Virus record (IMG/VR): IMGVR_UViG_3300007234_000023
Location: 1 to 44,534 of that record
Reading direction: 5' to 3' (one strand)
Source: a virus
Length of the DNA stretch: 44,534 nt
The notes under the pieces were generated by a model. It was given only the letters and a program-made list of their open reading frames with translations. It ran no database searches and had not been told where the DNA came from. Every line of letters starts with the position of its first letter. The first letter of the stretch is position 1. This document shows positions 10,115-44,422 of this stretch, one piece after another. The position numbers and the translations under genes were made by a program.

Positions 10115-11467
10115 GTGGCTATAATCAGTGAATTTACAAGGCGTGTGGCGCCACCAGCATTACCGGAACCGCCTGCACAGTACGCCAAAAGGTATAACGA
10201 TGAGTTCAACAATGTACTCCGACTTTATTTTAACCGACTTGACTCGGTACTGAGAGAACTTATGGCAAGCACTGGCCCATACCCCATGTACCCCTCTGGT
10301 CCTTACGCAGATGCGTTTGGGCGTGCTCGCATCAGCGAGCCTTTTACCTTGTTCGATAGCCAGAACCGCTATGATGCTTCTGGGGCTTTCGATACTAGCG
10401 CTTCTGGCGGTGGGTCCACCACGTATGTTGTAAACGAAAGCACTATTGAGCTAGATGTGGGTACGGTATCTGGGGATGAGATAATCCAAGAAACCTTTAA
10501 AGTATTCCCATACCAGCCCGGGAAAAGCCTGTTGGTTATGAATACCTTTGTAATGAATGAAGCTAAAGCAAACTTGCGGCAGCGTGTTGGGTATTTTGGA
10601 GCACAAAACGGCGTATTCTTTGAACTGGATGACACCACAGTAAACCTCGTTATGCGTAGTTATGTGACCGGAAGCGCCGTAGATACTAAGGTAGCCCAAG
10701 CCAGTTGGAACGGGGATAAGCTCAATGGTACCGGGGATAGTGGATACACGCTGAACCTTACACAGGCACAGCTATTTTGGCAGGATTTTGAGTGGTTGGG
10801 TGTTGGGTCTGTTCGATGTGGGTTTGTCATTAACGGGCAGTTTATTGTGGCGCATACCTTCCATAACGCTAATATTAACAACACGGTGTATATGACGACT
10901 GCTGTACTACCCATCCGGTATGAAATTACAAATACTGATACTACGGCTTCGGCATCCACCATGAAGCAGATATGCTCTACTGTTATTTCTGAAGGGGGTT
11001 ATCAGCAGACGGTACCGAAACAAGTGGCGCGTAGGACCGCAGACACTACTGTAGGTACGTCGTTTGAACCCTTGGTTTCTATACGTTTGGCCTCTGACAG
11101 ACTGGATTCAGTGATTATCCCAGCGGGTATCCCCGTGTTGCCTTCCGGTTCGAGTCCGGCTTATTACGAAATTGCTTTGATAAAAAACCCCACACTGACT
11201 GGTGCCTCATGGGACACTACTACGTTCCCCAGCGTAGACTATGATGTTTCTGCTACTGCACTTTCCGGGGGCAATATTGTGGATTTGCAGTATATCAGCG
11301 GCACTAACCAGAGTTCTTCGGGTATAAGCACCGAGTTTAACTATAACTTTGACTTGCAGCTTGGGCGTACCATAGGTGGGACTAGCGATATTCTTACTCT
11401 CGCAGCCCGTGTGTTTACCGGTACAAGCGATATTATTGGTTCGCTTGAATTTTACGAGCTGGCATAG
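10115..11467 (+). CDS. Virion structural protein, beta-rich, unknown role
   Basis: 450 residues, starting with GTG at 10115 behind AGAAGG; no better ATG is nearby. The N-terminal 50 residues (PPALPEPPAQYAKRYNDEFNNVLRL) form a short helical adaptor seen in related phages. The remainder is beta-rich, with motifs such as RQRVGYFGAQNGVFFE and VRCGFVINGQFIVAHTFHNA that suggest a jelly-roll or concanavalin-like fold. It has no enzymatic signature. It lies five bases after the stabilisation protein gene and is probably a tail, baseplate or decoration component. Confidence 0.65.
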   Translation: MAIISEFTRRVAPPALPEPPAQYAKRYNDEFNNVLRLYFNRLDSVLRELMASTGPYPMYPSGPYADAFGRARISEPFTLFDSQNRYDASGAFDTSASGGGSTTYVVNESTIELDVGTVSGDEIIQETFKVFPYQPGKSLLVMNTFVMNEAKANLRQRVGYFGAQNGVFFELDDTTVNLVMRSYVTGSAVDTKVAQASWNGDKLNGTGDSGYTLNLTQAQLFWQDFEWLGVGSVRCGFVINGQFIVAHTFHNANINNTVYMTTAVLPIRYEITNTDTTASASTMKQICSTVISEGGYQQTVPKQVARRTADTTVGTSFEPLVSIRLASDRLDSVIIPAGIPVLPSGSSPAYYEIALIKNPTLTGASWDTTTFPSVDYDVSATALSGGNIVDLQYISGTNQSSSGISTEFNYNFDLQLGRTIGGTSDILTLAARVFTGTSDIIGSLEFYELA

Positions 11468-25888: not shown

Positions 25889-26119
25889 TTATGTGAAATC
25901 CAGTAACAGCTCTTCGATAGCCGTAGACTGTTTAGTGCTCGGTTTATGGGTAGCACAGAACCAGTTGTATATAGTCTGCCTAGTCACACCCAACTTCTCA
26001 GCGATGGTAGTAACAGGAACATCATACTCGATGCACATGCGTCCTAACTTCACGCCAATGGATGTGACGTCGGCAGCTTGGTTCAGCTTTATAACCCTTG
26101 AGCTATAACCGTGTTTCAT
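25889..26119 (-). CDS. Helix-turn-helix DNA-binding protein
   Basis: 76 residues. A helix-turn-helix is clear at about 37-60 (TTIAEKLGVTRQTIYNWF). The fold resembles Cro/CI-like or resolvase-type regulators. Its start overlaps the stop of the candidate ssDNA-binding gene (TGATG) and it shows no ribosome site of its own, which suggests coupling. It could regulate early transcription or help load the primase downstream. Its operator is unknown; the palindromes at 37.7-44.5 kb are candidates. Confidence 0.8.
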   Translation of the reverse strand: MKHGYSSRVIKLNQAADVTSIGVKLGRMCIEYDVPVTTIAEKLGVTRQTIYNWFCATHKPSTKQSTAIEELLLDFT

Positions 26120-29540: not shown

Positions 29541-29830
29541 TTGCGTTTTTTACTTTCACGCTTGCTAGTTTCAGAAACTAGGTTGCCTTTGGAATCACGT
29601 CTGAATGAACGGTTACGTGAAGCAGACTCCACCCTAGTACCATGAGAGTTTTTACCACCTTTATCCATAGCTTTTTTATGGGCTACATCTTTGCCATCAC
29701 CCTTGGTTACGCGTCCGTCGCGCATAGCCTTACGGCGTGCAGCGTTGCGTTGAGCACGCTTTTTCTTCTGCTCTTCGGTGCCTTGGTAATTGGCATACTC
29801 TTTACGGTAGTTACGTTTTTTACTTGGCAT
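29537..29830 (-). CDS. Small basic protein related to HNH endonucleases, probably degenerate
   Basis: 97 residues, about a third Lys/Arg, with ribosome site AGGAGCG. It parallels small phage HNH proteins that begin with NYxKEYxNYQGTEEQKKKRA and carry GDGKDVDHIKPLxKGG. Here the segment reads GDGKDVAHKKAMDKGGKNS, so the Asp before the key His is Ala and the Ile-Lys-Pro-Leu part is changed. The later Asn (SASRNRSF) remains. It may bind DNA without cutting. The comparison is from memory of the family. Confidence 0.65.
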   Translation of the reverse strand: MPSKKRNYRKEYANYQGTEEQKKKRAQRNAARRKAMRDGRVTKGDGKDVAHKKAMDKGGKNSHGTRVESASRNRSFRRDSKGNLVSETSKRESKKRK

Positions 29831-31625: not shown

Positions 31626-32002
31626 TAGTGTAAGTTCCTGTCGCGTTCTTCTTTGGCTAGGTCCATAGGGTCTGGGCTGCCCAATTCTCCCCAGTAGGAC
31701 CAACAATGAGATTCGTAGTCGGCTACTATTTTTTCGGCATAGTCACAAAGGGCATCTGACAGGCGTAATTTACCCACGTCGCCCGGATTAGTGAATTTAA
31801 TAAAATTTAGCACGTCACTAGCCAGCGATTCGTTACCGTCTATAGCATCAGCTAGTAGCTCCCAAGCTCCCCACTTATGCTCCAGAATCTGCCATGCCAT
31901 AGTTAGCACTCGCTTGGTAGGTTGGAAATACCCATTACGGATTACTTCACGTATCTCAGATTCCAACATTCGTTCCATTTCAGGTATCGGTTTCAAAATC
32001 AT
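31625..32002 (-). CDS. Conserved phage protein, unknown
   Basis: 125 residues. Ribosome site AACGAGGAG lies before ATG 32002. Largely helical and acidic (LADAIDGNESLASDVLNFIK, LRLSDALCDYAEKIVADYE), with Trp-rich SHCWSYWGELGSPDP. It overlaps both neighbours (ATGA upstream, TAATG downstream). No family recognised; it shares a transcript with the Cas4-like nuclease. Confidence 0.65.
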   Translation of the reverse strand: MILKPIPEMERMLESEIREVIRNGYFQPTKRVLTMAWQILEHKWGAWELLADAIDGNESLASDVLNFIKFTNPGDVGKLRLSDALCDYAEKIVADYESHCWSYWGELGSPDPMDLAKEERDRNLH

Positions 32003-32247
32003 AATGCTTCTCCTCGTTTAAGTTTCATATTGGCTAGGTTGTCTAGCATAACTTGTCTGCGTCTTGCGGTTAATGATTCGTCGTTATACTTACGGGTTCT
32101 GTAGTATACGTAGTCCCTTATAGTATTCACAGGTAACTGGTATCTGTCAGCCAGTATTTTTATCTTACTACTTTTACCCTGACCTTTCATTTCCTCGTAT
32201 TCCGCACGTATCTGCTGCACGGTTTCATATGGTACTGCTACTTTCAT
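31999..32247 (-). CDS. Small HTH DNA-binding protein
   Basis: 82 residues, ribosome site GGGGGGTAAG. A helix-turn-helix reads KIKILADRYQLPVNTIRDYV, followed by a basic stretch (YYRTRKYNDESLTARRR). It resembles phage regulators with a single HTH. It overlaps the SleB-type hydrolase upstream and the 125-residue gene downstream by four bases each. Its target is unknown. Confidence 0.72.
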   Translation of the reverse strand: MKVAVPYETVQQIRAEYEEMKGQGKSSKIKILADRYQLPVNTIRDYVYYRTRKYNDESLTARRRQVMLDNLANMKLKRGEAL

Positions 32248-35681: not shown

Positions 35682-35900
35682 CTATTTTTGACAAAGTAAA
35701 GTTTTAAAATGTTTATATTCTTCTTCAAGTTCCGCGTGGATAGCACGCTTGGCTTCCTTCTTCTCATCGCTAGTACCGTCCAGCACTTGTATCTCCCCCA
35801 TCTTTATCTTACGGGTAGTCCAATACATAGCATCCTTGGGGTCAGTCTTTAGCTTATAAGCTATCTTTACGCCATCAGCGTTAACGTATGTCATTTTCAT
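35682..35900 (-). CDS. Small basic protein, unknown
   Basis: 72 residues from ATG 35900, whose site AGAGGAGA is strong; the TTG 18 bases upstream is less likely. Charged, with a short beta start (MTYVNADGVKIAYKLKT) and helical end (EAKRAIHAELEEEYKHFKTL). It overlaps the ribbon-helix-helix gene by 20 bases and precedes the VRR-NUC gene. The role is unknown. Confidence 0.65.
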   Translation of the reverse strand: MKMTYVNADGVKIAYKLKTDPKDAMYWTTRKIKMGEIQVLDGTSDEKKEAKRAIHAELEEEYKHFKTLLCQK

Positions 35901-36060
35901 TTTTCTTCTCCTCTTCAAGTTTACGGTCTGCGTAGTCCATCAAGACTGTACGCATGGCTTTGGTATAGTTACTATACCCTTGGTAAAACTCTAACACATA
36001 CGGTGGTAAACGTAAGTTAACGTGTTTCATAGGTGCATCTTTTCTATCTATATTCCTCAT
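35881..36060 (-). CDS. Ribbon-helix-helix DNA-binding protein (Arc/MetJ type)
   Basis: 59 residues. The strand KHVNLRLPPYVL is followed by two helices (LEFYQGYSNYTKAMRTVL, MDYADRKLEEEKK), the arrangement of ribbon-helix-helix repressors. Its ATG overlaps the stop of the 266-residue gene (ATGA) and its end overlaps the next gene by 20 bases, so it is part of the operon. Dimeric repressors of this type recognise short palindromes; the repeats in 37.7-44.5 kb are possible targets. Confidence 0.75.
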   Translation of the reverse strand: MRNIDRKDAPMKHVNLRLPPYVLEFYQGYSNYTKAMRTVLMDYADRKLEEEKKNENDIR

Positions 36061-36869: not shown

Positions 36870-37721
36870 TCAGAAGTCAAATTGGCTCAGTATGCTATCC
36901 ACCTTGCTTTTCATTACCTCACGGGTAGCAGGTGATTCTTTAATCATCTCAATATCAGCACCTACTAGCGCATCCTCAAGTTGTTTGCGTGCTCGTTCAA
37001 GGTCTGGGTCATTGCTTATGTTCAAGTGTGTGAGCAGCTTGCACAGGTCTTTAGCGTTCTCAAGGAAACTGTCGTGAAACCGCTTTTTGGTATCCTCATC
37101 AGCTTCGGTCAGCTTGTTGCTCATGTCGCTTAACATCTTGAACAGCTTGTCCCATGCCTGTTTGTTAGCCACAGCGAACCTATCCGCAAACTCGGATTCC
37201 ATTGATTCTCTCAGCTCATCTAGCTCTTGCTTTGGTATATCCAATGCTAAGTGACCAGACTCAGGTACAGGTGATGGTATGTACTCCATGTCAAACTTAT
37301 TTAAGATGTCCTCCTGCGATGGAAAGTGCTCGGCAGCGTACTTGTAGTTACTCGCTGCGATGGCTTTCTGCAAGATGCGATGATAGTTGTCATACGCATG
37401 CTGTCGCATATCCAGAAACTCCTGCTTATATTTCTTGAACTCAGCGTTGTAGTCCATGAACAGACTGGTTGCCAGTAAGCGGAATCCTCTATCTTCCCAA
37501 GGTAAAGTAAGTTCTGCGTGCCTAGCTCGGCACTTTGCCAGATATTTGTTAAGGTTTTTGACCTCGGGCATGTACTGGAGTATATCTTCCTTAAAGATTA
37601 AGGCTCTCTCGTCAGTACCCTCGTTGATTGCAGTCTGTTGTGACACATCTGCACGTTTCACCTTCACGTCCATGTAGTTGGTGTTCAGTTTCATAAGTAA
37701 TGCGCTACTTGATAAGCTCAT
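36870..37721 (-). CDS. DUF3150-like protein
   Basis: 283 residues, mostly helical coiled coil (YNAEFKKYKQEFLDMRQHAYDN and similar), with an N-terminus MSLSSSALLMKLNTNYMDVK and PWEDRGFRLL near residue 74. It resembles DUF3150 proteins, which accompany MoxR-like ATPase and VWA genes in some phages. Those sets are thought to form a remodelling complex, with DUF3150 as a scaffold, but this is inference. It has the operon's shared start block (AACGAGGAGTAAAACCATG) and a palindrome upstream. Confidence 0.7.
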   Translation of the reverse strand: MSLSSSALLMKLNTNYMDVKVKRADVSQQTAINEGTDERALIFKEDILQYMPEVKNLNKYLAKCRARHAELTLPWEDRGFRLLATSLFMDYNAEFKKYKQEFLDMRQHAYDNYHRILQKAIAASNYKYAAEHFPSQEDILNKFDMEYIPSPVPESGHLALDIPKQELDELRESMESEFADRFAVANKQAWDKLFKMLSDMSNKLTEADEDTKKRFHDSFLENAKDLCKLLTHLNISNDPDLERARKQLEDALVGADIEMIKESPATREVMKSKVDSILSQFDF

Positions 37722-37744: not shown

Positions 37745-37761
37745 ACCTAACAATGTTAGGT
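37745..37761. promoter_or_regulatory. 17-bp perfect palindrome between the 290- and 283-residue genes
   Basis: Arms ACCTAACA and TGTTAGGT around one A. It lies 12 bases after the upstream stop and 24 bases before the next start. It may be an operator or an RNA hairpin. Its first nine bases recur at the right end of the window. Confidence 0.6.
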
Positions 37762-39898: not shown

Positions 39899-40966
39899 TT
39901 ACAGTAAGTCCACATTGTCAGCCAGCCATTGCGCAAACGCTCGGTTGGTCGTGGCGATAGCCTGTTTGTCCGCACGTCGCACCAAAGATATGCCGAACAG
40001 ACATTGCCACTCCTCGTCTACCCTGCGCAGGTAGGTCATTATGGGTTCTAGCGTATCCTTTTCTACTCGCTCTATAAGACCGAACACAAGTACAGCCACC
40101 GCCCCAGCATCTTCGGGTACAAGTGCGCTGTTCGGATTCTCCCGTATCTCTTGGAATGTCGGCAGACTGTCTTGGTGTCTTACAAACTGAGATATGGACT
40201 CCGCTGCTGGTCTACCCACTACGCCAGCCAGTGCAGCTTGCAACATACTGAAACTGTAGCTGTCTCTTGCATCAAGTATCCTGCTTGCCAGTTCTAGCGT
40301 ACGTGGTGACACACAACCATCTTGGGTCTTGCGTGGATTAAAGATGAATGGATTTTCCTGCTGGTCGCCATCACGATAGGAAGCCAGCGCATGCGGGTTT
40401 CTGTCCACCCAAGCCATAATGATGGGGTTGATGTGGTTATTCGCTGCCCATTGTAGCCACTCGTCAGAGTTAGGCTTTGATATTTCCACAGTACACACAC
40501 GCTGTCTGGTATGTGCAGCCATTGAGTCACCTACACCATCAGTTTCTAGGTTGCCTGTTAGCACTACTATAGTGCCTTCAGGTGTGGGCATATCACCCAG
40601 TCTTGGGTTAAACACCTCAAGCATTGGGTGTAGCATATTCTGTACGGGTTGCGGTGCTTTGGAATACTCGTCAAGAATAATTACCTTTGGTTTGCCATCA
40701 TGTAACCCGAATGTTGCATTGGGGTAATACTTGGTTGTCTTGCTTTCGTGGTCAATCACAGGCATGCAGATGTCACCCAAATCCATGTTGGTACATGAAA
40801 GTATCCTGTACTCCATGCCCACAGCTTCGCTGATGGTTTTAGCCAGTGATGTCTTGCCACTGCCCGGCTCACCTACTAAGTTGTACCGGATTTTGGGGCT
40901 AGCCACGATTGCCTTGCCAGCTTCGCTTAGGGTCATGGTTATTCTTTCGTTTACTATGGTATTCAT
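39899..40966 (-). CDS. MoxR-like AAA+ ATPase
   Basis: 355 residues. Walker A GEPGSGKTS (32-40), Walker B VIILDEYSKA (95-104), sensor 1 VLTGN (135-139), arginine-rich finger TRQR (153-156). A helical C-terminus follows. These ring ATPases usually act with VWA proteins to remodel large complexes; this gene is followed by exactly such a partner. It is first in the operon, with its own strong promoter (41038-41078), 21-bp palindrome and start block. Confidence 0.93.
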   Translation of the reverse strand: MNTIVNERITMTLSEAGKAIVASPKIRYNLVGEPGSGKTSLAKTISEAVGMEYRILSCTNMDLGDICMPVIDHESKTTKYYPNATFGLHDGKPKVIILDEYSKAPQPVQNMLHPMLEVFNPRLGDMPTPEGTIVVLTGNLETDGVGDSMAAHTRQRVCTVEISKPNSDEWLQWAANNHINPIIMAWVDRNPHALASYRDGDQQENPFIFNPRKTQDGCVSPRTLELASRILDARDSYSFSMLQAALAGVVGRPAAESISQFVRHQDSLPTFQEIRENPNSALVPEDAGAVAVLVFGLIERVEKDTLEPIMTYLRRVDEEWQCLFGISLVRRADKQAIATTNRAFAQWLADNVDLL

Positions 40967-40987: not shown

Positions 40988-41008
40988 AACCTAGTTTCAA
41001 ACTAGGTT
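40988..41008. promoter_or_regulatory. 21-bp palindrome, copy 1
   Basis: Arms AACCTAGTTT and AAACTAGGTT around a central C. Lies in the leader of the MoxR-like ATPase gene, between promoter and ribosome site, 22 bases before the ATG. Could be an operator or an mRNA hairpin. Confidence 0.75.
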
Positions 41009-41037
41009 GGTTTTAAAATTTTTACCCCTTTCCATTT

Positions 41038-41078
41038 GAGCTATGCTCATTGTACCACATTTTGTACCACAATGTCAA
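41038..41078 (-). promoter_or_regulatory. Strong sigma-70-like promoter of the ATPase operon
   Basis: Minus strand TTGACA (41073-41078), 18-base spacer, TACAAT (41049-41054). Direct repeats of TGTGGTACAA, 12 bases apart, overlap the -10 region. Directly after the -10 lies GAGC-ATA-GCTC (41038-41048), so the transcript start falls inside a small palindrome. Confidence 0.82.
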
Positions 41079-41082
41079 GTCG

Positions 41083-41331
41083 CTAGTCACGTGAGCGTTT
41101 GCCTGCCATCTTAGCAACCTGATACAGCTCGTCTGATATGTACTCCAGCGAAAAGTTATTGTCCGCATCAGTCCATACATGGTGCGTGTAGGTATAGTCA
41201 CGGCTGTCCTCCACACGATGTGACATTTTTTCGTACCGTTCCGCTGACGCTAGTATATGTATGATGGGCATTGCATCTTCCGCATCAATTACGTACTCAG
41301 TGTATCCAATTTTTATCAGTGCTTTTGCCAT
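41083..41331 (-). CDS. Small protein, unknown
   Basis: 82 residues from ATG 41331, with GGAGCAAAG in front; a longer frame starts with TTG. The last codon is five bases before the promoter -35 of the ATPase operon. Mixed alpha/beta (YTEYVIDAEDAMPIIHILAS, FSLEYISDELYQVAKMAGKR). No known family. It overlaps the 55-residue gene by 35 bases. Confidence 0.6.
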   Translation of the reverse strand: MAKALIKIGYTEYVIDAEDAMPIIHILASAERYEKMSHRVEDSRDYTYTHHVWTDADNNFSLEYISDELYQVAKMAGKRSRD

Positions 41332-41464
41332 GTCTTTGCTCCATTTCTCCAATTAAGTAAACTAGTCTGCCATGCGACAATGCTTTAAGGGTCTGCCCGT
41401 TTTTCTCGGCATGCCAGTCCCCGTAGCGGTCGCGCCATGTTGTCCAGCCGTTAATTATTTGCAT
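41297..41464 (-). CDS. Small protein, unknown
   Basis: 55 residues from ATG 41464, chosen for its strong site (GGAGGTGAG); a longer frame to 41524 would overlap the phosphatase gene. Contains INGWTTWRDRYGDWHAEK. Function unknown. Confidence 0.58.
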   Translation of the reverse strand: MQIINGWTTWRDRYGDWHAEKNGQTLKALSHGRLVYLIGEMEQRHGKSTDKNWIH

Positions 41465-41507
41465 CTGAATCTCACCTCCAGTCTTTTTAGTTTCTTGTCG
41501 GTATCCA

Positions 41508-41969
41508 TCACTCTTCCCACGCATTTACTTGGTGACAGACAAAGCCCTCTTCTCGCCACATATTCACCACCTTCTGCCTGTCGTCCAGCACCAGCAGGGT
41601 ATTTTCAGGCGTCAGGCTCATTGATTCCGCCAACTCACGTTTTACTACCACGTCGTCACGATAGTCACCATTGGCACGCATGAGTAGTGCATCATATGGT
41701 ATGTCTGCAATGTCCAGCCATGTTTCCGTACCTGTTCTGCACACGTCGTTCCTGCCAGATAGCAATACGATTGACAAGTCAGTAGCCTTTCGGAACGCAC
41801 GCAGTACCTTTACTGTCGCACCTATAGGCACGTCTTTCATCACCTCGGCATCACTGTTGAAGCTACGCCAATCTTTTTTGCCGCCATCCGCAGGTCTTAT
41901 GTAGTGCAGTCGGTGAGTCAGGTCTGCCAGAGTCCCGTCAATATCACACACAATAAATAGTTTCTCCAT
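41508..41969 (-). CDS. HAD-family phosphatase, polynucleotide-3'-phosphatase-like
   Basis: 153 residues from ATG 41969. HAD motif I Asp9-x-Asp11-GTL, motif II Ser71 in LLSGRND, motif III Lys110 in VVVKRELAE, motif IV Asp129-Asp130 in LVLDDRQKV. The closest functional model is the phosphatase half of phage polynucleotide kinase, which removes 3'-phosphates from nicked DNA or RNA; the kinase half is absent. A nucleotidase role is also possible. Its ATG overlaps the end of a 36-residue membrane ORF (TAATG). Confidence 0.83.
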   Translation of the reverse strand: MEKLFIVCDIDGTLADLTHRLHYIRPADGGKKDWRSFNSDAEVMKDVPIGATVKVLRAFRKATDLSIVLLSGRNDVCRTGTETWLDIADIPYDALLMRANGDYRDDVVVKRELAESMSLTPENTLLVLDDRQKVVNMWREEGFVCHQVNAWEE

Positions 41970-42079
41970 TACATACCCCCTAGTGCCAGCACTATCCACA
42001 TACTTGCGTATATAAAAGCTGCACCCATCACGCCACAGCCAATCATCACGAACCACTCGGTTTTGCTAAACTTATTCAT
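41969..42079 (-). CDS. 36-residue single-pass membrane protein
   Basis: Begins MNKFSKTEWF and continues as one hydrophobic helix (VMIGCGVMGAAFIYASMWIV) with a short tail. AGGAGG lies in front of its ATG. Both ends overlap neighbours in TAATG junctions. The overlap pattern and strong ribosome site support a real gene. It may be an envelope-directed early protein; unknown. Confidence 0.65.
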   Translation of the reverse strand: MNKFSKTEWFVMIGCGVMGAAFIYASMWIVLALGGM

Positions 42080-42273
42080 TACAAACCTCCTGTGCTATGC
42101 ACTACTTGTTCGCCATCTTTTTCGGCAAGCCAAACGTGCACGTCATATTCTTTTACTTTAGTACGTCTAAGCTGACTCTGAAGCACCTGTACAGCTTTTT
42201 GTTGTGCTCCGTATGATGTCTCAGCTTCCACTTCTACCTTCCTGTCCTTCCAGAAACAAATGTACTTATTCAT
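42079..42273 (-). CDS. Small conserved phage protein
   Basis: 64 residues with site AACGAGGAGAACGAC. The pattern MNKYICFWKDRKVEVEAETS, YGAQQKAVQVLQ resembles a small protein found in other phages; its function is unknown to me. It overlaps the upstream gene by eight bases. Confidence 0.7.
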   Translation of the reverse strand: MNKYICFWKDRKVEVEAETSYGAQQKAVQVLQSQLRRTKVKEYDVHVWLAEKDGEQVVHSTGGL

Positions 42274-42514
42274 TGTCGTTCTCCTCGTTTAGTTGTCGTA
42301 ATTCATTGTAAAAATGTTCCCAAGTGATGCCGTAGTTGGCATCATGGTTTTCGTACAAGCTATACAAGATACCCATACAAGTTTCATCATCTGGCACAGC
42401 TAGTCCTATGTCTCTAGCTGCTTGCTTCACGTCATCAATGTGCCAAACAATCGCTATTGAGTTTTCGCTGGTAAAGTTACCCGCATTATCATAAACAAAT
42501 ACTTTCTCACTCAT
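42266..42514 (-). CDS. Small acidic protein, unknown
   Basis: 82 residues. Acidic (DDVKQAARDIGLAVPDDETC, GITWEHFYNELRQLNEEND), consistent with a small inhibitor or DNA mimic, but no homology is recognised. The start is at ATG 42514, one base before the next gene's stop. It has a GAGGGGCAATAAG site. Confidence 0.62.
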   Translation of the reverse strand: MSEKVFVYDNAGNFTSENSIAIVWHIDDVKQAARDIGLAVPDDETCMGILYSLYENHDANYGITWEHFYNELRQLNEENDNE

Positions 42515-42515
42515 C

Positions 42516-42833
42516 TTATTGCCCCTCGTTGTTAAAAGTTACTCGGTCTATTTTCTCTATGCATAAAGTGTAGTCTGCTATATAGCTTCCATTTTCATCA
42601 GGGTAAGCCCTATCATCTTCTATCTGATATGTTCTTATATACCCATCTTCGCCATATGCTCCAGACCCAAGCTCGTGACCAAAATAGTTATTTATAACTT
42701 CCTTTGCCTGTTCTATCGAACCAGTAGTGTCTATTTCAAACCCATCTTTTGAACAAACAAAATCGACTTGCCCTTCCTCATCAGACCATTCATACACCAT
42801 GATTTCTACTACGCTTATTCTGTATTTACTCAT
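42516..42833 (-). CDS. Small acidic protein, unknown
   Basis: 105 residues, acidic and beta-rich (KYRISVVEIMVYEWSDEEGQ, DYTLCIEKIDRVTF), with an acidic middle (EDGYIRTYQIEDDRAYPDEN). It overlaps the zinc-ribbon gene by four bases. Like its downstream neighbour it could be a protein mimic or host-directed factor; the evidence is composition only. Confidence 0.62.
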   Translation of the reverse strand: MSKYRISVVEIMVYEWSDEEGQVDFVCSKDGFEIDTTGSIEQAKEVINNYFGHELGSGAYGEDGYIRTYQIEDDRAYPDENGSYIADYTLCIEKIDRVTFNNEGQ

Positions 42834-43030
42834 CGGAAAAATCCTCCCTTGTTGTTGATGCCTTTCAGCTCGTTGCGGTCAGTCACGACCATGTAGTTGC
42901 TTTTGTGTAGTGGTACTGTCGTATGTACAACACGTTTAGCTTGCGCCTCTCCGCACGTTAAGCATGTTGTGTAATTAAGTACTGCCCGTTCTTTTGGGTA
43001 TGGCTCTTTGCAATCTGTGCATATTGGCAT
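42830..43030 (-). CDS. Small zinc-ribbon protein, first gene after promoter
   Basis: 66 residues. CTDC near residue 4 and CLTC near 23 form a zinc ribbon; the rest is basic. It is the first gene behind a near-consensus promoter (43115-43156) and a 21-bp palindrome, with site AGAGGAGAACGAC. Perhaps a transcription or translation factor of early infection. Confidence 0.68.
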   Translation of the reverse strand: MPICTDCKEPYPKERAVLNYTTCLTCGEAQAKRVVHTTVPLHKSNYMVVTDRNELKGINNKGGFFR

Positions 43031-43048
43031 GTCGTTCTCCTCTGTTCT

Positions 43049-43069
43049 AACCTAGTTTCAAACTAGGTT
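43049..43069. promoter_or_regulatory. 21-bp palindrome, copy 2
   Basis: Identical to copy 1. In the leader of the zinc-ribbon gene, 19 bases before the ATG at 43030 and 46 bases downstream of the transcript-start palindrome. Confidence 0.75.
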
Positions 43070-43114
43070 GGTTTTGTTATAAAAAATTTGTATTGTCGCA
43101 GGCGCAATTTCCAC

Positions 43115-43156
43115 ATGGACTATGTCCATTGTACCACATTGTTATGGTTTTGTCAA
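43115..43156 (-). promoter_or_regulatory. Near-consensus sigma-70 promoter of the zinc-ribbon operon
   Basis: Minus strand TTGACA (43151-43156), 17-base spacer, TACAAT (43128-43133). The -10 context TGTGGTACAATG matches the ATPase operon promoter. Beside the -10 is ATGGAC-TAT-GTCCAT (43115-43129), a palindrome in the same place and with the same TAT centre but different arms. Confidence 0.85.
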
Positions 43157-43186
43157 GTGGTTCAGGTGTAGGTGAGGCTGGTAGTG

Positions 43187-43482
43187 TTATAACAATAGGG
43201 GTGTTTTTTGAAAAGTGTAACAATATTTATAACAATATGAACGCTTAGTGTGATGCGGGTTTGGGTGGGTGTATGTATTGTATTGTTATAAAGTTATAGA
43301 AAAAAAAGGGTATACAGCACCCTTGAGCTTTTTGCACATAGGAAGAGGGGCTTCTCTTGCCAAGACGAAATCCCCCCGTATGCTTTTTTTAGCGTAACAT
43401 TGTAACAATACCAATTATACTTTATAAATCAATTACTTAACTCGTAACATTGCTAAAACGAAAAAATAACATTGTAACAATA
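43187..43482. repeat. Iteron-like (G/A)TAACAATA / TAACATTG cluster
   Basis: TAACAATA occurs at 43190-43197, 43218-43225, 43230-43237, 43403-43410 and 43475-43482, inverted at 43281-43288, and as GTAACATTG or ATAACATTG at about 43394, 43444 and 43466. Such spacing of short repeats in a gene-free A+T-rich region resembles origin iterons or a cluster of regulator sites. Confidence 0.6.
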
Positions 43483-43509
43483 TAAAGTGTTGACGAGCCT
43501 ACCAAAAAA

Positions 43510-43533
43510 TGATACGCTGAGTTCAGCGTATCA
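43510..43533. repeat. 24-bp inverted repeat
   Basis: Arms TGATACGCTGA and TCAGCGTATCA around two bases, perfect over 11 pairs. It lies in the gene-free region between the iteron cluster and the ACTATCA repeats, not near a coding start. Possible dimeric protein site or hairpin origin element. Confidence 0.8.
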
Positions 43534-43573
43534 GTTAAGCCAAACCTACCAGATACAAACGTAAGCCTAGTCT

Positions 43574-43619
43574 ACTATCATCAAACTACTATCACGTATA
43601 ACTATCATCACTACTATCA
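43574..43619 (+). repeat. Four ACTATCA direct repeats
   Basis: Copies start at 43574, 43588, 43601 and 43613, 12-14 bases apart. Near-helical-turn spacing suggests cooperative protein binding on one face of the DNA. Not a CRISPR array: units are too short and there are no spacers. Confidence 0.7.
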
Positions 43620-43646
43620 CGCGAAAAAATTGACTTTTTCGTGGGC

Positions 43647-43674
43647 AAAAAAAAGCCCACCATTTCTGGTGGGC
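43647..43674 (-). terminator. Rho-independent terminator after the 204-residue gene
   Basis: On the minus strand GCCCACCA and TGGTGGGC pair around a GAAA tetraloop and are followed by eight T. It lies 27 bases past the stop of the 204-residue gene, separating that gene from the downstream operons. Confidence 0.93.
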
Positions 43675-43681
43675 TTTGGGT

Positions 43682-43702
43682 AACCTAGTTTCAAACTAGG
43701 TT
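43682..43702. promoter_or_regulatory. 21-bp palindrome, copy 3
   Basis: Identical to the other copies, but located at the 3' end of the 204-residue gene: its last bases form part of the TAA stop. It lies just before the terminator. Confidence 0.75.
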
Positions 43703-44315
43703 AAACTTTCTCTTTTTCAATATCAACACCATGCACTATTAGTACCTGTGCAATATCATTCATAAGCTGGGTTAGGCTTTCGTCTATAGCCTCAAATTTG
43801 CCTAGATGCTGATATTGTGAAAGTAAGGTTTTCAACACTTTAGTGTGTATTTCTTCAGCGCTAGGCGCTTCTGGTTTCTCTTTTTCTTTCCCGTATGCTT
43901 CATGCTCTGGGTTACTTGGTTTAGACTTACCAGCGTATCCAAGAGACCATTTGCACACGTTTTGCCATGCTTGGTCGTTATCTAGTGCTTTTCGCATGGT
44001 ATCAATCCATTGGATAGTGTTCCCAGACAGTCCAAATTCAGAACCTATGTTGGTGCATTGCTCCGCATATTTTTCTGAACCGCGCTCGGCTTTTACTTTA
44101 TTAAACTTCACAAGTGTAAACTTGTTATTTGTTACTTTATCAAGACGGCTAGCCATGTTGCCATAAGCACTTTTTAACGTCTCAATGATTGATGAGGCAT
44201 AAGCTGTGTTACCTTGAATATCCGCAATCAGTTCAGCATCTTGGCTTTCAAGGTTGAAAGATTTTTGAATTGCTGATGCCAAAGTGTCGCGCTGTGATTT
44301 AGTAAAAGTTTTCAT
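43701..44315 (-). CDS. Unknown protein, self-contained early transcription unit
   Basis: 204 residues, with site AAAAGGAAAAAA before the ATG. Mostly helical, charged and without known motifs (KSQRDTLASAIQKSFNLESQ, KFTLVKFNKVKAERGSEKYA, GNTIQWIDTMRKALDNDQAW). The gene has its own promoter (44395-44422), palindromes at both ends and a strong terminator, so it is likely transcribed separately at high level. The distinct leader and palindromes would fit an autoregulated early protein. The activity is unknown. Confidence 0.8.
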   Translation of the reverse strand: MKTFTKSQRDTLASAIQKSFNLESQDAELIADIQGNTAYASSIIETLKSAYGNMASRLDKVTNNKFTLVKFNKVKAERGSEKYAEQCTNIGSEFGLSGNTIQWIDTMRKALDNDQAWQNVCKWSLGYAGKSKPSNPEHEAYGKEKEKPEAPSAEEIHTKVLKTLLSQYQHLGKFEAIDESLTQLMNDIAQVLIVHGVDIEKEKV

Positions 44316-44334
44316 AGTTTTTTTCCTTTTGTGT

Positions 44335-44355
44335 AACCTAGTTTCAAACTAGGTT
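44335..44355. promoter_or_regulatory. 21-bp palindrome, copy 4
   Basis: Identical to the other copies. Lies in the leader of the 204-residue gene, 20 bases before its ATG and 40 bases past the -10 element. Confidence 0.75.
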
Positions 44356-44394: not shown

Positions 44395-44422
44395 AATATA
44401 TGCCCGTTTTGGATAATGTCAA
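44395..44422 (-). promoter_or_regulatory. Sigma-70-like promoter of the 204-residue gene
   Basis: Minus strand TTGACA (44417-44422), 16-base spacer, TATATT (44395-44400). Its downstream leader contains GGCA-AAGG-TGCC (44372-44383) and the 21-bp palindrome, but no shared TACAATG context with the other two promoters. Confidence 0.72.

Follow-up and report, generated by a model that had tools for sequence, protein, structure and literature searches.

What do repeated palindromes do in the leader regions of early phage genes? The question is raised by a virus record of 44,534 bases, analyzed here in its full length and called the window below, in which the 21-bp palindrome AACCTAGTTTCAAACTAGGTT is present in four exact copies among the early genes (sites 1 to 4 in Table 1). 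An initial annotation of this DNA had listed the copies as identical, and all four were indeed found to be exact and correctly placed. Each is built from two 8-bp half-sites around a 5-bp spacer, AACCTAGT-5-ACTAGGTT. No fifth copy was detected in the window when up to three mismatches were allowed, and a near-palindrome at 29565 that was considered as a further site was rejected, being explained by protein-coding conservation. The palindrome was not found at all in 100 dinucleotide-preserving shuffles of the window; with no copies expected, chance does not account for four palindromes of 21 bp.

A virion structural protein encoded in the window is 47.5% identical to that of HMO-2011 (86% of the query, E=2e-105), and by this protein similarity the window phage is classified as an HMO-2011-type podovirus, one of a marine group that is both dominant and widespread (PMC9038755). 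The text of a few published accounts of HMO-2011-type phages makes no mention of promoters, operators or palindromes.

Sites 1, 3 and 4 are located on minus-strand transcripts between a near-consensus sigma-70 promoter (TTGACA-16/17/18-TATATT/TACAAT, 11/12) and a Shine-Dalgarno sequence, the -10 hexamer lying 39-58 nt upstream and the ATG 18-21 nt downstream, and they precede a 204-aa open reading frame (ORF), a 66-aa gene and an ATPase gene, one site each. Site 2 overlaps the TAA stop codon (43701-43703) of the 204-aa ORF, and an intrinsic terminator follows directly. Both arrangements had been described correctly in the initial annotation. The 204-aa ORF, with its own promoter and terminator, thus forms a unit that has a palindrome at each end.

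Phage-specific palindrome sets in related phages

Searches for exact copies of AACCTAGTTTCAAACTAGGTT gave no match in public viral contigs and a single match (Flavobacterium) in 84,980 genomes, which is the number expected by chance. The window half-sites with a spacer of 3-5 bp were found in 21 viral contigs, as single exact copies and with no convincing set among them. Two HMO-like contigs, L111 (position 2934) and L124 (position 5405), carry one AACCTAGTAAATTACTAGGTT each, downstream of a structural gene related to window 10115-11467.

For comparison with relatives, 80 contigs were collected by a search with the DNA polymerase of the window, and the window palindrome was present in none of these. 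A scan for repeated palindromes nevertheless showed that 23 of the 27 relatives whose contigs extend 5 kb or more upstream of the polymerase gene, a sample containing several near duplicates, have a multi-copy palindrome of their own; no multi-copy palindrome was seen in the other four (L044, L076, L079 and L090). Written as half-site and spacer length, the sets are AACCTACA-3-, AACCTATA-3-, AACCTAGA-4-, AACCTTGA-3-, AACATTGA-4-, GCGTACGG-3-, TGCATAGG-4- and AGGGTTAC-5-, and further AGGTAGGT-2-, AGATATCT-2-, GCGTGGTA-2-, (A/G)CCTAACA-1- and TAACA-1- (L087). Within one phage the 8-bp half-sites are constant and the spacer has a fixed length (1-5 bp) and a variable sequence, whereas between phages the half-sites may change completely. 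In four long records (50-62 kb) all copies lie within the early region. The initial annotation had suggested looking for the palindrome at the same positions in relatives: the window sequence is absent there, but another phage-specific palindrome is found instead. Judged from these comparisons, the window palindromes are this phage's own form of a system that most of the marine-type relatives examined also have.

The positions of the sites are conserved as well. In the relatives, most sites precede a start codon by 8-24 nt; they lie upstream of the Shine-Dalgarno sequence, in many cases in contact with the preceding stop codon. Other sites lie just before a terminator. Sites precede nearly every early cistron, and some are inside genes. 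The spacing from promoter to site is conserved, the site lying 33-74 nt after the -10 hexamer of early promoters in the window and in relatives such as L034, L105 and L038. When junctions are aligned, the same junction holds a different palindrome in each phage or is empty, as in L031 (...GACTTACTATAAAGGAGAACGACTATG, occupied) versus L046 (...GACTTACTGTAAACCTACAATATGTAGGTTGGAGAACGACTATG, empty).

Differences of this kind, which look like nearly clean insertions of the palindrome after the stop codon and ahead of the Shine-Dalgarno sequence, together with the occurrence of junctions with and without a palindrome, could point to mobile or recombining palindromes copied between junctions, either like the repetitive extragenic palindromes (REP) or like the exchange linkers of phage T4, whose promoter-early stem-loop (PeSL) cassettes also place a promoter and a stem-loop between early genes. 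We regard this explanation as very improbable: the insertion point floats, one half-site of L034 falls on coding sequence that L032 already has, searches of the flanking ORFs with Pfam and PHROG recognised no transposase family, all copies in a phage switch together, and sites within coding sequence are conserved. The stem-loop of the T4 cassette is itself the terminator, whereas the phages described here have terminators apart from the palindrome, which occurs in multiple copies and is phage-specific.

Phage-specific palindromes preceding early genes also call to mind the short hairpin promoters used by the virion-carried RNA polymerase of phage N4, and the ATPase of the window is distantly akin to that of N4-like phages. 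That the palindromes would be such promoters is, however, scarcely credible, as host-type promoters are located upstream of them, the spacer varies in length, the palindrome can lie immediately next to the Shine-Dalgarno sequence, sites are also found inside genes and before terminators, and a Pfam search of the 1981-aa protein, at the sequence level only, gave no RNA polymerase domain.

An open reading frame that switches with the palindromes

An ORF of 158-250 aa flanked by sites, as the 204-aa ORF is in the window, was found in L033, L034, L038, L105, L107, L056, L032, L071 (L133), L066 (L134), L022, L031, L082 and L064, although both flanks are not always on the contig. In L071 the architecture was predicted first, and the extended contig was then seen to contain a site, the ORF, a site over the stop codon and a terminator, in that order.

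The most informative comparisons are those between near-identical phages. L032 and L034 have DNA polymerases that are 98.0% identical, ATPases that are 98.6% identical and a 286-aa protein that is 99.65% identical, and their sites occupy the same junctions with conserved flanks, yet the palindromes are unrelated (GCGTACGG-3 versus AACATTGA-4) and so are the flanked ORFs. Likewise, the DNA polymerases of L066 and L071 are 97.9% identical, while their sites differ (AGGTAGGT-2 versus AGATATCT-2) and the flanked ORFs are 25% identical. In pairs that share a site, the identity of the flanked ORFs is 82% (L032/L056), 92% (L034/L105) and 47% (L038/L107). At the level of sequence, site type and flanked ORF vary together in L032/L034, L066/L071, L032/L056 and L034/L105, with L022/L031 as the exception discussed below. 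No other unmatched small ORF, judged by eye, recurs with the palindromes as the flanked ORF does.

Three small regulators of the window had previously been put forward as candidate binders, and none of them is supported. In the comparison of L066 with L071, two phages with different palindromes, the orthologue of the helix-turn-helix (HTH) protein (25889-26119) is 98.7% identical and that of the ribbon-helix-helix protein (35881-36060) is 94.8% identical; being unchanged between phages with different sites, these proteins are not the determinants of specificity. Nine relatives were tested for the 82-aa HTH protein (31999-32247), and an orthologue was seen in none.

No Pfam or PHROG family was found for the flanked ORFs, that of the window included. 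A structure model of the L033/L034/L038 family is all-helical with a mean predicted local distance difference test score (pLDDT) of 77, and a Foldseek comparison of it with the PDB and a viral structure library gave no meaningful match. The single-sequence structure of the window ORF (pLDDT 44) was too poor to use.

Recognition of DNA or of RNA

It had been left open initially whether the palindromes are an operator set or an mRNA hairpin. The sites themselves support the operator set and leave the hairpin as the weaker alternative. Perfect dyads make up 96 of 130 distinct sites, and nearly all broken pairs are among the outermost two. With 30 mismatches against 11 G-U pairs (11/41), G-U wobble is not favoured, and within phages only three pairs were changed on both sides. 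Between phages the arms change together, which a DNA dyad explains as well. In sites with a spacer of 1-2 nt the innermost pair is unable to close a hairpin and is still complementary in 39 of 40 cases, although this evidence is only moderate because the dyad itself defines the spacer length, and it is weak when taken per phage family. L082 and L092 carry 17 and 12 copies, respectively, several of them inside genes and in two reading frames, and the aligned coding sites of these two phages are 100% identical with flanks of 63-87%. With coding sites better conserved than the sequence around them and no preference for G-U pairs, recognition at the DNA level fits better than an RNA hairpin.

We therefore consider it unlikely that the palindrome is an RNA element, in which a hairpin bound or cut by a cognate protein would control translation, processing or stability of the early cistrons. 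Such an element would benefit from a hairpin that folds in all transcripts of the window (9-bp stem, 3-nt loop, -8.6 kcal/mol alone), where all copies are in untranslated RNA, and from its placement outside the Shine-Dalgarno sequence, before nearly every cistron and before terminators. Against it stand, besides the pairing data above, the conserved sites in translated genes and the coding sites of late genes on the opposite strand in a Rhizobium phage (see below).

A proposed system of dispersed operators

On balance we think it probable that the palindromes are dispersed DNA operators of a self-regulated, fast-evolving repressor of early genes, likely the product of the 204-aa ORF, acting as a roadblock to elongation. 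A symmetric and probably dimeric phage protein would bind the two 8-bp half-sites across the 5-bp spacer of the window; the likely binder, made early, is the 204-aa product, whose ORF would be self-regulating, given its separate promoter and terminator and the operators on either side. In the window the protein would sit in the leaders behind the three early promoters and at the 3' site of its own gene, and in relatives ahead of nearly every early cistron and inside some genes; its main action would be to block the elongating host RNA polymerase within leaders and between cistrons. Early transcription would be shut off once the regulator accumulates, the regulator would limit its own level, and a second phage entering the cell would itself be silenced if it carried these sites. 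That near-identical phages differ in specificity en bloc would be consistent with selection for evading this kind of exclusion.

Several observations weigh against these dispersed operators and their proposed regulator. Sites just upstream of the Shine-Dalgarno sequence and before terminators would also suit action at the RNA level, and for a block of transcription there seems little need of an operator ahead of each cistron in an operon. L022 and L031 share their main site, and their flanked ORFs are only 25% identical; at L022 1316 and 1474 the ORF of L022 is led by the variant TGCCTAGG-AATT-CCTAGGCA, the other sites of this phage being TGCATAGG-AATT-CCTATGCA, which is possibly a specificity switch in progress. 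Some other small ORFs are also without a match between the switched pairs, so the cognate role of the flanked ORF is not proved by elimination. For the window ORF neither a search for related loci nor tblastn gave any relatives, and as its site set is found in no other contig, its cognacy is read solely from the architecture. Finally, the modelled relative of the flanked ORF has no recognisable DNA-binding fold.

A possible, if doubtful, extension is that the hypervariable operator-regulator pair, private to each phage, serves this widespread phage group as a self/non-self code. The binder would then have a novel DNA-binding fold, and near-identical phages would exchange or re-specify the pair as one unit, with early shut-off as well as type-specific superinfection exclusion as the outcome in phages that are not obviously temperate. 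The interest of the system lies in up to about ten operators and a likely regulator switching together in phages of 98% identity, a natural experiment on the turnover of DNA-binding specificity, and in flanked ORFs that point to a possible family of DNA-binding proteins without a recognised fold. From sequence alone, the system further yields predictions of immunity types that can be tested.

Comparison with known systems

In the cluster A mycobacteriophages, stoperators are located in short intergenic spaces and have been proposed to halt elongation (PMC9283540), and they vary between phages along with the repressor (PMC6550527). Like those of cluster A (L5), the palindromes are many phage-specific sites in promoter regions and short intergenic spaces that differ together with a candidate regulator, although the window has only four copies, and the autoregulation of the cluster A repressor gene is what we propose for the flanked ORF. 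Stoperators are asymmetric sites of 13 bp that act in an orientation-dependent manner and are bound by a monomer, whereas the palindromes are symmetric (8+n+8). The immunity repressor of cluster A has a recognisable HTH, whereas the flanked ORF has no recognised fold (by Pfam, PHROG and structure; without a direct comparison with the L5 repressor). Cluster A phages are temperate and their motifs vary gradually, whereas the sites described here can differ completely at 98% identity of the polymerase. By analogy the palindrome system would work most like the cluster A stoperators, yet it is not a member of that class, because stoperator sites are asymmetric and their repressor has a known HTH.

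The conserved inverted repeats (CIRs) of phage phiC31 are perfect repeats of about 17 bp; multiple copies lie close to promoters and the beginnings of genes in the early region and are bound by the repressor c. Likened by description, these are also symmetric inverted repeats dispersed over the early region; phiC31 itself is an actinophage of temperate lifestyle, and its repressor is large.

Related sites in cultured phages

The isolated Rhizobium phage RHph_TM3_14A (MN988472; L096, L101 and L102) has an ATPase and a polymerase related to those of the window group. Its genome contains 38 GTTACC-6-GGTAAC sites (at most one mismatch), distributed across the genome and over genes of both strands, 23 of them in coding sequence, including coding regions of late genes on the opposite strand. 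The record carries no annotation of these 38 sites. The candidate ORF, QIG67493.1, has a degenerate leader site before it and a site after it. On synteny and architecture only, the sites may belong to the same system.

The 38 sites across this genome, and symmetric sites dispersed over a large region including coding sequence in general, would also be compatible with palindromes bound for genome organisation, replication, packaging control or self/non-self marking and not for transcription. We find this quite improbable, since in the HMO-like phages the sites occur only in the early transcribed region, where their positions go with those of promoters, leaders and terminators.

In the scanned stretches of HMO-2011, KPP25, DSL-LC04 and Rollin no comparable multi-copy palindrome was found, apart from TAGTCCG-4-CGGACTA of HMO-2011, which is present in three copies at the start of the record (L099 59, 1260 and 1925).

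Other features of the window

The features are collected in Table 1. The early proteins of the window comprise the MoxR-like ATPase, a phrog_1314 neighbour ("HNH" by PHROGs, with a Rhizobium-phage orthologue annotated as a metallopeptidase), DNA polymerase, helicase and primase.

Table 1 Positions of the palindromic sites and neighbouring features in the window.
Feature	Position	Strand	Remarks
Palindromic site 1	44335..44355		Leader of 204-aa ORF; AACCTAGT-TTCAA-ACTAGGTT
Palindromic site 2	43682..43702		Over stop codon of 204-aa ORF, just before terminator
Palindromic site 3	43049..43069		Leader of 66-aa gene operon
Palindromic site 4	40988..41008		Leader of ATPase gene
Sigma-70-like promoter of 204-aa ORF	44395..44422	minus	TTGACA-16-TATATT
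204-aa ORF	43701..44315	minus	Monocistronic, site-flanked; candidate cognate DNA-binding regulator; no Pfam/PHROG match
Intrinsic terminator of 204-aa ORF	43652..43677	minus	
Sigma-70-like promoter of 66-aa gene operon	43128..43156	minus	TTGACA-17-TACAAT
66-aa DksA-like zinc-finger protein gene	42830..43030	minus	First in operon
Sigma-70-like promoter of ATPase operon	41049..41078	minus	TTGACA-18-TACAAT
MoxR-like ATPase gene (phrog_1297)	39899..40966	minus	First in operon
Single palindrome of non-cognate type	37745..37761		Leader of 283-aa gene; ACCTAACA-A-TGTTAGGT
283-aa gene	36870..37721	minus	Downstream of the 37745 palindrome; orthologue bears palindrome in many relatives

A second, different palindrome of the window, ACCTAACAATGTTAGGT, which the initial annotation did not list, is found at 37745 and is of the type used by L025, L026, L082 and L092. 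Single palindromes of foreign type are seen at the same junction in two phages, ACCTAACA-1- in the window and AACCTAGA-3- before the 286-aa gene in L068, which suggests that they are relics, or that the genes were acquired together with their leaders.

The stretch 43150-43680 of the window is long, AT-rich and non-coding; it resembles a replication origin, containing TAACAATA/GTAACATTG and CTACTATCA repeats as well as an inverted repeat of 24 bp (43510-43533). L056, L103 and L105 have similar repeats, TAATGTTACG-like, near the same place. At two of the early promoters (41035-41060 and 43110-43135) the minus-strand dyads GAGCATAGCTC and ATGGACATAGTCCAT are located at the expected start of transcription and TGTGGTACAA repeats overlap the -10 hexamer, and these dyads and repeats are possibly a second operator.

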